From assembly GCA_949285145.1 (NCBI GenBank), contig CASDXQ010000020.1, positions 1 to 43,067 on the forward strand: 43,067 bases of DNA, in the 5' to 3' direction. Below are positions 24,262 to 27,066 of the stretch, in pieces. How positions within the stretch are numbered: the stretch's first letter is position 1; each line of letters starts with the position of its first letter. The notes under the pieces are model-generated. The model was not told the DNA's origin, did not search any database, and was given only the letters and a program-made list of their open reading frames with translations. The DNA is from an uncultured Spirochaetales bacterium. GTDB taxonomy: Bacteria; Spirochaetota; Spirochaetia; Sphaerochaetales; Sphaerochaetaceae. Made by a program: the position numbers and the translations under genes.

Positions 24262-25416
24262 ATGCAGCATATACGAAATCTCATTGACAATGATCTTCTT
24301 GTGAAAAGAGATGCAAAACGTGATGAGGATGTCAGAGGGGCGTTTTACCGTGATATGACGGCAATCATACATTCCTCTCCGTTTTCTCGTCTTAAGCACA
24401 AGACACAGGTCTTCTTCGCTCCTGCCAATGATCATATCTGTACACGTATGGAACATGTGCTTCATGTCGCTTCGATCGCATCAACCATATGCCGCCCGTT
24501 CGGTCTTGACAGCGAGCTTGCATGGGCTATAGGCATGGGGCATGATCTGGGACACACTCCGTTCGGGCATGTGGGCGAGAGGATAATAAGCAAACTCTCT
24601 GAGGAAAGAGGATTCGGCAGTTTCGAGCATGAGGTGAATTCTCTTCGTGTTGTCCGCATGCTGTGCAATCACGGAAAAGGGCTGAACCTCACCTATGCTG
24701 TACAGGACGGTATCGTATCGCACTGCGGAGAATATTTCCTCAAGCGCATAATGCCGACCTTCACACTCAAGGATCTTGATTCGGTCACCACGCGCAAAGG
24801 ACTCATTCCCTCTACATTCGAAGCTGTTGCGGTCCGTTTTTCAGATTCAATCGCTTATCTTGGCCGTGATTACGAAGATGCGCGCAGACTTGGGATTCTT
24901 GATGGGGCACCTTCACTGCCTCTGGCTGTGCGCAATGTTCTCGGTGACAGGAACAGCTCCATCATAAATACTCTGGTAAATGATATCATCGCATCGACAA
25001 GTCAGGATGATGGCATGGGTTTTTCACAGGAAATCTACGAAGCTGTGCTTGAGATGAAGGATTATAACTACAGGAACATATACAGAAGCGAGTTGCTTGC
25101 CGGGTATACCGGATATTTCACGAGACTGCTGCAACTCATCGTGAATTATCTCGACGGGCTCATGTCATCATACGGATATGACAAGAAAGGGTACGATGAA
25201 GAGAAGAACATGCTTGCCGCAGGTTTCTATTCCCATCTCATGGAGTTAAAGGACAAATACATTGAGAAGGAAGGGAGCTGTGCACGTCTGGTTCTGGATT
25301 ATGTTGCCGGAATGAGTGACAATTTCGCGCTTGACTGCGCCAACGAAATACTCAAGCCGGAGCATCTCAATGACAGAATAGAGCAGAGCCAGAGAGGCAA
25401 ATGGTTTGATGTCTAG
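24262..25416 (+). CDS. dGTPase-like HD-domain triphosphohydrolase
   Basis: 384 residues, of the deoxyguanosinetriphosphate triphosphohydrolase-like family, which cleaves dNTPs to the deoxynucleoside and triphosphate. PFSRLKHKTQVF, RMEHVLHV (metal His), MGHDLGHTPFGHVGE (HD motif) and FEAVAVRFSDSIAYLGRDYEDA with the fourth metal Asp are all present. The frame opens at GTG 24241, but ATG 24262 is preferred as it stands 6 bases after a -10 hexamer; neither start has a ribosome binding site. It converges on nrdR with a 4-base overlap, putting two dNTP-supply genes together. Confidence 0.87.
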   Translation: MQHIRNLIDNDLLVKRDAKRDEDVRGAFYRDMTAIIHSSPFSRLKHKTQVFFAPANDHICTRMEHVLHVASIASTICRPFGLDSELAWAIGMGHDLGHTPFGHVGERIISKLSEERGFGSFEHEVNSLRVVRMLCNHGKGLNLTYAVQDGIVSHCGEYFLKRIMPTFTLKDLDSVTTRKGLIPSTFEAVAVRFSDSIAYLGRDYEDARRLGILDGAPSLPLAVRNVLGDRNSSIINTLVNDIIASTSQDDGMGFSQEIYEAVLEMKDYNYRNIYRSELLAGYTGYFTRLLQLIVNYLDGLMSSYGYDKKGYDEEKNMLAAGFYSHLMELKDKYIEKEGSCARLVLDYVAGMSDNFALDCANEILKPEHLNDRIEQSQRGKWFDV

Positions 25417-25898
25417 TTTTGTTCTTCACTCTCGTCGCCGACGGTTCTGGCGATGTTTTCTATTTCGCTGATGAATTTATTCACATCATCGAATTCCCTG
25501 TAGACGGAGGCGAAACGCACATAGGCCACCTTTGATACCTTGTAAAGTTCCTTGAGCGTTGTCTCTCCGATATCAAGCGATGTGATCTTGCGGGTGTGTT
25601 CGGTTTTTCTGTTTATCTCATCTTCTATGCTGTTGAGAAGTTTTTCGATTGTTCCCTGACTGAGCCTGAGTTTTTCCGTACAGGTTCTCACTCCGCGTTC
25701 GATCTTGCTTATATCAAAAGGCTGTTCGCTTCCGTCTTTCTTTATGACAATAAGGGGCTTTTCCTCTATGCGTTCATAGCTTGTGAAACGGAACCCGCAG
25801 GAGAGGCATTGTCTTCTTCTCCTTATCGCAGAGCCGTCTCTGATCTGCCTTGATTCAAGAACCTTGTCTTCTATTGAGGAACATCGCGGACATTTCAT
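25413..25898 (-). CDS. nrdR: Transcriptional repressor NrdR
   Basis: Zinc-ribbon plus ATP-cone repressor of ribonucleotide reductase genes; 161 residues, the usual size. MKCPRCSSIEDKVLESRQ and RRRRQCLSCGFRFTSYER form the zinc ribbon with four cysteines. IVIKKDGSEQPFDISKIERGV begins the ATP-cone that reads ATP/dATP levels. No ribonucleotide reductase gene is in the window. ATG 25898 lacks a Shine-Dalgarno and is 6 bases after TAGAAT, so a leaderless mRNA is likely. It is divergent from the ACT-domain gene. Confidence 0.95.
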   Translation of the reverse strand: MKCPRCSSIEDKVLESRQIRDGSAIRRRRQCLSCGFRFTSYERIEEKPLIVIKKDGSEQPFDISKIERGVRTCTEKLRLSQGTIEKLLNSIEDEINRKTEHTRKITSLDIGETTLKELYKVSKVAYVRFASVYREFDDVNKFISEIENIARTVGDESEEQN

Positions 25899-25904
25899 AT
25901 ATCC

Positions 25905-25933
25905 ATTCTACAAAAGTCATGCAAGACTCTCAA
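25905..25933 (-). promoter_or_regulatory. Possible leaderless promoter of nrdR
   Basis: Minus strand TTGAGA (25928-25933), 17-base spacer, TAGAAT (25905-25910), then 6 bases to ATG 25898. Confidence 0.5.
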
Positions 25934-25991
25934 TTGTTATTTTTAACATATTGCTTGAAAAAAATAACAAAGTGTATTAAAAATAACAATT
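25932..25991. repeat. 15-bp perfect inverted repeat with a third core copy (operator candidate)
   Basis: AATTGTTATTTTTAA at 25932-25946 is the exact reverse complement of 25977-25991. A third copy of the core AAAAATAACAA lies at 25960-25970, a direct repeat 19 bases before the copy at 25979-25989. The left arm touches the nrdR -35 hexamer. The right arm covers the -10 hexamer of the ACT-domain gene and runs up to its ATG. The sequence does not resemble an NrdR box. Confidence 0.6.
25955..25983 (+). promoter_or_regulatory. Possible promoter of the ACT-domain gene
   Basis: TTGAAA (25955-25960), 17-base spacer, TAAAAA (25978-25983), 8 bases before ATG 25992. A leader of about 2 bases is predicted. 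Confidence 0.4.
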
Positions 25992-26654
25992 ATGAGCGAA
26001 TCAATTTCCACCTGTGTCAAACAGGTCATAAACAATAGTCCTTTCATAAATGAAATGCTGATTCAGCAGGTGATCAGCTATTCGAATCTTTCACGTTTCA
26101 TCCAGCCCAAAGTTGAGCAGATGTACGGCAGTGCGGTGAAACATTCCGCAATTGTGATGGCTGTCAGACGCTACAGCGAAGATCTGATCGTAAATCAGAA
26201 GAGGACGAAAAGGGAAAAGATAAACTACGAGATAAACATGAAGACGAACATCTACGATGTGAATTTTGTAAGAAGCGATGTTTTTGTCTCAAGACTTTCT
26301 TCCCTGTATGACGAGGTGAAAATGCAGAAGGGGGATTTTCTGAATGTTTCGATCGGCTCTCATGAGATATCCCTGTCGGTTTCAGACAAGTTCAAGGATG
26401 CTGTCGAGGAGATAATAAAAGGGGAGGAGATCCTTCACAGAAAAGATAATATGGTGGCTCTCACGATTTCTTTTACCGGTGATTTCCTGCAGACACCCGG
26501 CATTCTCTATATGGCGACACGCAAGCTTGCATGGGAAAACATCAATCTGACGGAAATCGTGTCCACGATGAATGAGCTGACTTTCGTCATTGAGAAGGAA
26601 GACAGCATGAAAGCATATGATGCGCTGCAGTCATTCTTCGATGAGGAGATTTAA
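25992..26654 (+). CDS. ACT-domain protein, possible regulator
   Basis: 220 residues. The last 70 form an ACT domain of the aspartokinase type: ALTISFTGDFLQTPGILYMATRKLAWENINLTEIVSTMNELTFVIEKEDSMKAYDALQSFF, with the expected P-GIL, ENINLTEIVST and ELTFVI strands, so small-ligand (amino acid) binding is likely. The N-terminal 60 residues are helical (INEMLIQQVISYSNLSRFIQPKVEQ...AIVMAVRRYSE) and could be a DNA-binding domain; that is a guess. There is no kinase domain. No ribosome binding site; a promoter-like pair ends 8 bases upstream. The gene overlaps the next by 14 bases. Confidence 0.75.
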   Translation: MSESISTCVKQVINNSPFINEMLIQQVISYSNLSRFIQPKVEQMYGSAVKHSAIVMAVRRYSEDLIVNQKRTKREKINYEINMKTNIYDVNFVRSDVFVSRLSSLYDEVKMQKGDFLNVSIGSHEISLSVSDKFKDAVEEIIKGEEILHRKDNMVALTISFTGDFLQTPGILYMATRKLAWENINLTEIVSTMNELTFVIEKEDSMKAYDALQSFFDEEI

Positions 26655-27066
26655 GTTCATAACAGCACCTCATGACGGAGGAAAGACACGTTGGATTCTT
26701 GAGCACTGCATGGGGTGCAGAGGTTTTGCTTCTGTAAGCGTAGATGCGGGAAAGAAGGAAATTTTTCTCATGAATCTTGAGAGCGGAGATAAAAGACCTC
26801 TGATGAGGAGAAATGATGAAGGGCTCTACATTGTGAATGAAGATGCTTTCTTATATGCAAATGCCTGTATCATGAGTGCGGCGGCAGGCACGGTCGTTCT
26901 TGATGAATGCGGCTGGATGGAGTGCTCAGGCAAAGGTTTTTATCCTTCCCTTGAGCATCTGAGGGATACACCATCACTGTCAGCACTGCTTTCTGTCCGG
27001 CTTGACAGGCTTGAGTGGTATCTTGATTTCTTCGGAAGCGGAAATGTCCGGATCATCAGGCTCTGA
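26641..27066 (+). CDS. Small P-loop NTPase, unassigned
   Basis: 141 residues from the chosen ATG. The N-terminus reads FITAPHDGGKTRWI, where APHDGGKT (9-16) fits the P-loop [AG]-x4-G-K-[ST]. VVLDE (85-89) is a plausible Walker B. The short size and layout recall the THEP1-like nucleoside triphosphatases, but I cannot confirm the family. The frame opens at 26617; ATG 26641 is preferred because it puts the P-loop at the usual distance from the N-terminus. It overlaps the ACT-domain gene by 14 bases with no evident ribosome site, so translation probably depends on the upstream gene. Confidence 0.6.
   Translation: MRRFKFITAPHDGGKTRWILEHCMGCRGFASVSVDAGKKEIFLMNLESGDKRPLMRRNDEGLYIVNEDAFLYANACIMSAAAGTVVLDECGWMECSGKGFYPSLEHLRDTPSLSALLSVRLDRLEWYLDFFGSGNVRIIRL

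Follow-up and report, generated by a model that had tools for sequence, protein, structure and literature searches.

A tandem box array beside a spirochaete ACT-domain gene points to a candidate lysine-responsive autoregulator

The short gap between nrdR and a divergent ACT-domain gene in an uncultured Spirochaetales bacterium carries a repeated DNA element, and we consider it likely that this element consists of operators of the adjacent protein itself. The protein would be an autoregulated transcription factor in which a DUF7523-like DNA-binding domain is fused with an aspartokinase-type pair of ACT domains as sensor, with lysine as its most likely effector. In this spirochaete group it seems to control its own gene together with genes for lysine synthesis and amino-acid uptake, a role that the lysine riboswitch fills in some relatives.

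The gap measures 93 bp and is 77% AT. We found AATTGTTATTTTTAA at 25932-25946 of the window (the whole stretch of 43,067 nucleotides that was analysed) and its exact reverse complement at 25977-25991, with 15 of 15 arm positions matching, while copies of AAAAATAACAA lie at 25960-25970 and 25979-25989. The perfect 15-bp inverted repeat and the extra core copy of the original prediction are thus both real. No repeat of 15 bp arose in 300 dinucleotide shuffles of the gap, and because the longest one in these shuffles was 12 bp, the arms are beyond chance. What is the unit of this element? Its parts fall into three 16-bp boxes of consensus TGTTATTATAATAACA (starts 25935, 25954 and 25973; Table 1) that keep an exact 19-bp register, a feature absent from the original prediction. 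When the 43-kb window was scanned with a matrix of 64 sites, among them the window's own box pair, which is common to two close relatives, this triple scored best of all positions and boxes 1 and 2 formed the best pair. The repeat is better read as three in-register boxes, the apparent inverted repeat being a good left half of box 0 set against a good right half of box 2.

Table 1. Coordinates of the boxes, candidate promoters, genes and protein domains in the window
Feature	Position	Strand	Description
Box 0, TGTTATTTTTAACATA	25935-25950	.	Outermost box, corresponding to the left arm; weakly conserved (G000, G001, G012, partly G014); assigned by score and register
Box 1, CTTGAAAAAAATAACA	25954-25969	+	Conserved candidate operator; overlaps the ACT-gene -35
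Box 2, TGTATTAAAAATAACA	25973-25988	+	Conserved candidate operator over the -10 region; highest-scoring individual box of the window
Candidate promoter of the ACT gene	25955-25984	+	TTGAAA (25955-25960), 18-nt spacer, weak AAAAAT (25979-25984); consensus match only
Candidate promoter of nrdR	25905-25933	-	TTGAGA-17-TAGAAT, with TTGAGA at 25933-25928; consensus match only
Helical domain plus tandem-ACT protein	25992-26654	+	220 aa, ATG at 25992; candidate lysine-responsive regulator
N-terminal four-helix domain	25992-26213	+	DUF7523-like; presumed DNA-binding
Two ACT domains	26214-26651	+	Aspartokinase-regulatory-domain fold; presumed lysine sensor
nrdR	25413-25898	-	Divergently transcribed neighbour; neighbourhood retained; unlikely to be a conserved target

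As originally proposed, the left arm touches the candidate nrdR -35 hexamer and the right arm covers the -10 and start region of the ACT gene, both promoters being consensus matches; box 0 starts 1 bp upstream of that -35 hexamer. The candidate ACT-gene promoter would leave a leader of nearly zero length ahead of the ATG. Across the window's genus, the end of box 2 lies 3 bp ahead of this ATG and no Shine-Dalgarno sequence was seen; the ACT-gene mRNA is possibly leaderless there. Some more distant relatives have GGAGG ahead of the ACT-gene start. The end of the ACT gene is overlapped by a small P-loop NTPase-like ORF (26617-27066; PF03266 at 19.5 bits, below the cut-off of 23.9), which among the fetched loci was seen only in this genus and is fast-evolving (32-76% identity).

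The nrdR/ACT-gene neighbourhood is retained in most of the loci compared, and two direct repeats right upstream of the ACT gene, which are boxes 1 and 2 in the window, are widely retained. Within the window's genus the two elements mostly read (T/C)TTGAnnnnnnTAACA-N3-TGTnnnnnnnnTAACA. Of 30 regions upstream of the ACT gene, 4 have the box-0 core TGTTATTT within 100 bp, and these four belong to the same genus. Conservation of the repeat among relatives therefore holds for the two boxes by the ACT gene but not for the left arm near nrdR, and we rejected the inverted repeat as the functional unit on this ground. With a held-out matrix, that is, one trained without the tested gene and compared with the 99% point of dinucleotide shuffles, the ACT-gene site passed this point in 20 of 30 genomes and exceeded the largest shuffle in 16; the ACT-gene upstream regions of G009, G036 and G019 scored below zero over 300 bp. 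Five ACT-positive genomes lie outside these 30: G060 has a strong ACT-gene site (30.0), G024 a weaker one (10.7), and the matrix scan gave no clear site at the gene in G022, G028 and G027. In G057 and G060, genomes of two other families, the ACT gene lies divergently to dapB-dapA and to dapA, respectively, and both gaps hold boxes. An aminotransferase gene, probably dapL when read by eye, follows dapB-dapA in G057 (C34:57500-61500, L264).

We searched 41 genomes for the two-box pattern and found that it recurs ahead of asd as well as of dapB, dapA or both; at the dap genes a topoisomerase gene, recognised by eye, often lies in divergent orientation. Upstream regions were gathered for asd and dapB and, at a later stage, for an amino-acid ABC transporter, from ACT-negative genomes as well; iterated matrices built on 64 sites yielded the consensus TGTTATTATAATAACA-N3-TGTTATTATAATAACA. 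Scans covered 38 of the 44 genomes with a dapB match, 39 of the 52 with an asd match and 29 of the 30 fetched transporter loci (G046 was left out). Using held-out matrices whose seed was a consensus made after dapB had been seen, and which are not blind in that respect, we found dapB boxes above the 99% shuffle point in 20 of 22 ACT-positive genomes (18 above the largest shuffle) versus 1 of 16 ACT-negative ones, and asd boxes in 15 of 28 (14 above the largest shuffle) versus 1 of 11. The sole ACT-negative match at both genes was G020. The matrix scan gave no boxes at dapB of G004 and G007, where this gene follows immediately on what reads as the coding region of an amino-acid ABC transporter ATPase; G007 has boxes at dapA instead, and none were found in G004. 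A matrix built from 19-bp-aligned sites gave 37 pairs of adjacent boxes no more than 60 bp apart, 32 of them with the 19-bp spacing, versus zero pairs in shuffles.

In the window's own genome boxes stand before dapB-dapA, and asd is without boxes in the matrix scan both here and in seven close relatives. A tRNA-Ala gene (L098 1287-1363) precedes this asd (G000 C39, upstream of 22183), and several close relatives look alike. An own-genome search with a two-box profile, which was built from 35 training rows with both top sites included and scored 150 of 486 first-look candidates, ranked the dapB site first (E 5e-5) and the ACT-gene site second (E 0.007). One of these rows (a G017 asd site) matches no locus letter for letter, and the profile was used for this search only. 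Weak profile matches at unrelated genes (L205, L206, L214-L219, L222, L223, L227, L229) were read as chance. The transporter site reached an E of only 0.82, presumably because its two boxes are 4 bp apart. A perfect box lies before this substrate-binding gene, whose product has TIGR01096 (lysine/arginine/ornithine binding) as its best family at 96 bits, below the cut-off of 256; to name a transported substrate from this match would be a guess. All 15 transporter orthologues of at least 63% identity show paired boxes 3 or 4 bp apart, each in an ACT-positive genome, and none of the transporter sites was used in matrix training. Among 14 more distant homologues none exceeded the largest of 290 shuffles (11.3), and that of G021 (10.0) was just over the 99% point (9.8). 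NhaC-type candidates of G007 (15.3) and G017 (16.3) scored above the shuffle maximum of the transporter regions and that of G039 (6.4) did not; the G007 protein gave 39 bits with TIGR00931 (cut-off 370) and 181 with a Tet(35)-type antiporter model (cut-off 750).

The motif first put forward, TTGTTATTTTTAA, is too narrow because its own-genome sites at one mismatch or fewer (4) are no more numerous than those of a reversed control. At two mismatches or fewer, TGTTATNATNATAACA gave 15 sites per strand versus 17 for its reversed control, and therefore the sites with zero or one mismatch alone may carry meaning: these are at the transporter (C17:3987), a LOG-family gene (C17:34443) and dapB (C28:11934). 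The single perfect box TGTTATTATGATAACA at the LOG-family gene (TIGR00730) occupies C17:34443-34458 of G000 (L172 1501-1516), 8 bp upstream of the gene, and is possibly a further target or a chance match. A Rex- or CRP-like box (TTGTGA-N6-TCACAA), prompted by the form TGTGATAATAATAACA in some relatives, was set aside in view of the cross-gene consensus TGTTATTATAATAACA and of the targets, which are lysine genes. Candidate operators thus lie at several lysine biosynthesis and transport genes (dapB-dapA, asd in relatives, the transporter), which would make up a lysine regulon in the functional sense. On the originally suggested check for sites upstream of amino-acid or nucleotide genes, the targets are in lysine biosynthesis and amino-acid transport, not among nucleotide genes.

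What kind of protein lies beside these boxes? The N-terminus of the window protein matches DUF7523 (PF24367), a family of unknown function, at 24.7 bits against a gathering cut-off of 27, and all 21 aligned members match this family at E <= 0.01 (best 9.5e-10). The Pfam ACT models gave 20 bits (ACT_7) and 16.4 bits (ACT_9), short of the gathering score of 27, and the best NCBIfam matches are aspartokinases (E 1e-5), with the best rows covering the regulatory part only. With 220 aa and a best family score of 24.6 against a cut-off of 379, the protein is not itself an aspartokinase: it has no kinase domain and bears a helical N-terminal domain instead. In the predicted structure (pLDDT 81.8), four helices (residues 5-69) precede two ACT domains (79-217), and the ACT pair aligns with the aspartokinase regulatory domain (Z 14.4 to 2hmf over 137 residues at 2.6 A; Foldseek E 6e-8). 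The ACT part is weak by sequence and clear by fold, the modelled elements at 79-217 showing the ACT fold twice. The N-terminal domain alone was modelled at a pLDDT of 90.6 and had no convincing fold match among solved structures; its best Z was 4.5, and several of the top rows were HTH-type DNA-binding domains with Z values up to 4.5. A sequence search of solved structures returned a single match, an aspartokinase (E 0.79). We infer DNA binding from the small helical fold, the likeness to DUF7523 and the genomics. The protein was found in 13 of 296 sampled genomes of the phylum and occurs in the window's family and in five other families of the class.

Which ligand would such a sensor read? 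The lysine riboswitch (L box, RF00168) is present in 11 of the 61 genomes, in 1 of 35 ACT-positive versus 10 of 26 ACT-negative ones (Fisher 5e-4, not corrected for phylogeny), a pattern that may reflect few evolutionary events; 16 of the 26 ACT-negative genomes are without it. Its targets in the relatives searched are of like types: it lies upstream of asd in G037, G044, G045 and G048, and, with ORFs read by eye, upstream of NhaC-type transporters in G021, G022, G023, G025, G026 and G033 and of an aspartokinase-like (lysC-like) gene in G058. G022 is the sole genome of the 61 with both this riboswitch and an ACT homologue (distant, 38% identical), possibly a transitional state. Lysine-riboswitch targets named in the accessible part of PMC5584792 include asd, dapA, dapB, lysW (NhaC superfamily) and amino-acid ABC transporters. 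The targets of the boxes, the aspartokinase-type sensor and the complementarity with the riboswitch all point to lysine as the effector. The riboswitch is an RNA leader that senses lysine directly; its counterpart here would be a protein with DNA operators.

How might the protein act on its targets? It would bind arrays of the 16-bp pseudo-palindrome TGTTATTATAATAACA in 19-bp steps, probably as an oligomer on neighbouring boxes. We compared the arrays with promoters guessed from consensus, at sites above a score limit only. At the ACT gene 16 of 30 sites pass the limit, and in 15 of these the array reaches from -35 roughly to the start point; because the boxes run over this region, their occupation would exclude RNA polymerase from the protein's own promoter and result in autorepression. 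In 16 of 20 dapB sites the array end coincides with the -35 hexamer (offset -5 or -6), and repression is the more probable sign there. The array ends 2 bp before -35 at the transporter in 11 of 15 sites and 16-18 bp before it at asd in 8 of 14. Since the geometry at the ACT gene and dapB suits exclusion and that at asd and the transporter suits either sign, we propose autorepression plus lysine-dependent control. The lysine level would switch dapB-dapA, asd and the amino-acid ABC transporter, the simplest mode being repression under abundant lysine; for asd and the transporter, whose array often lies at a fixed distance just upstream of -35, activation is as possible as repression. One variant of this reading, whose odds are part of it and not additional, has the protein act mainly as an activator for asd and the transporter when lysine is scarce, its own gene being the only one repressed. 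The constant distances at these two genes favour it, but the dapB geometry favours exclusion, fixed spacing can be inherited and the promoters are consensus guesses; we regard it as possible, though doubtful.

Could the boxes belong to another regulator? Were they operators of an unlinked lysine-responsive factor, the ACT protein would merely be one member of its regulon. Such a factor would suit an N-terminal domain that is not a proven DNA-binding fold, and it would suit two genomes with boxes, G020 (86% complete; at asd and dapB) and G013 (62% complete; at dapA), in which we found no ACT gene even at E 10 with the profile that detects the gene in other genomes. However, both assemblies are incomplete, and because nrdR, the usual neighbour of the ACT gene, was likewise not found in either, the ACT locus may be absent from them. 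As four genomes of 95-99% completeness (G021, G044, G049, G054) gave no nrdR match either, this missing-locus reading is an argument, not a proof. Elsewhere the boxes track the ACT gene across genomes, the gene itself is boxed in many of these and adjoins dapB or dapA in two other families, and its product combines a helical domain with an amino-acid sensor, all of which makes an unlinked regulator unlikely.

The original prediction took the three copies for operators of one regulator on two divergent promoters. One regulator is supported, and the second promoter is not. A single operator set through which the ACT protein or NrdR controls both nrdR and the ACT gene would fit the closeness of box 0 to the nrdR -35 candidate in this genome; against it, that box is rarely conserved (core in 4 of 30 regions) and nrdR is present in 55 of the 61 genomes, including box-less and riboswitch-bearing ones, and we dropped nrdR as a conserved target on these grounds. 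NrdR was also dropped as the binder: at three mismatches or fewer from the NrdR-box consensus, the window has no match where 1.1 would be expected by chance, in line with the earlier statement that the motif differs from this box. We therefore judge a shared operator set very improbable. Still less credible is the reading that needs no dedicated regulator and takes the repeats for chance or for a common AT-rich promoter. The gap is indeed rich in AT and the boxes overlap -35 and -10 candidates, but shuffling never reproduced the 15-bp arms, and the position of the array relative to -35 varies by gene whereas the palindrome and its 19-bp step are kept. The ACT protein, originally named as the obvious candidate, is the best one and probably an autoregulator, given boxes that lie over its own promoter and at lysine genes and that track the presence of its gene.

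ArgR and TyrR are amino-acid-sensing regulators that act on paired or tandem boxes, TyrR with an ACT domain; they differ from the ACT protein in their DNA-binding domains and boxes. Our literature search found no description of a lysine regulator of the kind proposed here and no mention of DUF7523. We take this family to be linked to archaeal COG2150, and TrpY presumably shares the DUF7523/COG2150-ACT architecture. COG2150 appears in the literature searched as a protein of Euryarchaeota. The closest working analogue is TrpY of Methanothermobacter thermautotrophicus, which the accessible part of PMC6737238 describes as an autoregulated repressor of an amino-acid operon that acts from the shared gap of divergent genes. 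The likeness would lie in autoregulation from such a gap; TrpY is archaeal, responds to tryptophan and uses TRP boxes. For lysine genes, the lysine riboswitch is the sole regulation named in the accessible part of PMC9026213.

We lean, with a little better than even confidence, towards a broader proposal, in which an undescribed lysine-responsive family with a DUF7523 DNA-binding domain and an aspartokinase-type tandem ACT sensor replaced, or was replaced by, the lysine riboswitch over like targets within one spirochaete family. Its members would repress their own gene over the span between -35 and +1, and they may activate asd and the transporter through arrays whose distance to -35 is constant. 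This would provide a protein family of unknown function with a testable function, ligand and DNA site, and it may be a case in which a metabolite-sensing RNA and a protein regulator swap control of one pathway between related bacteria.
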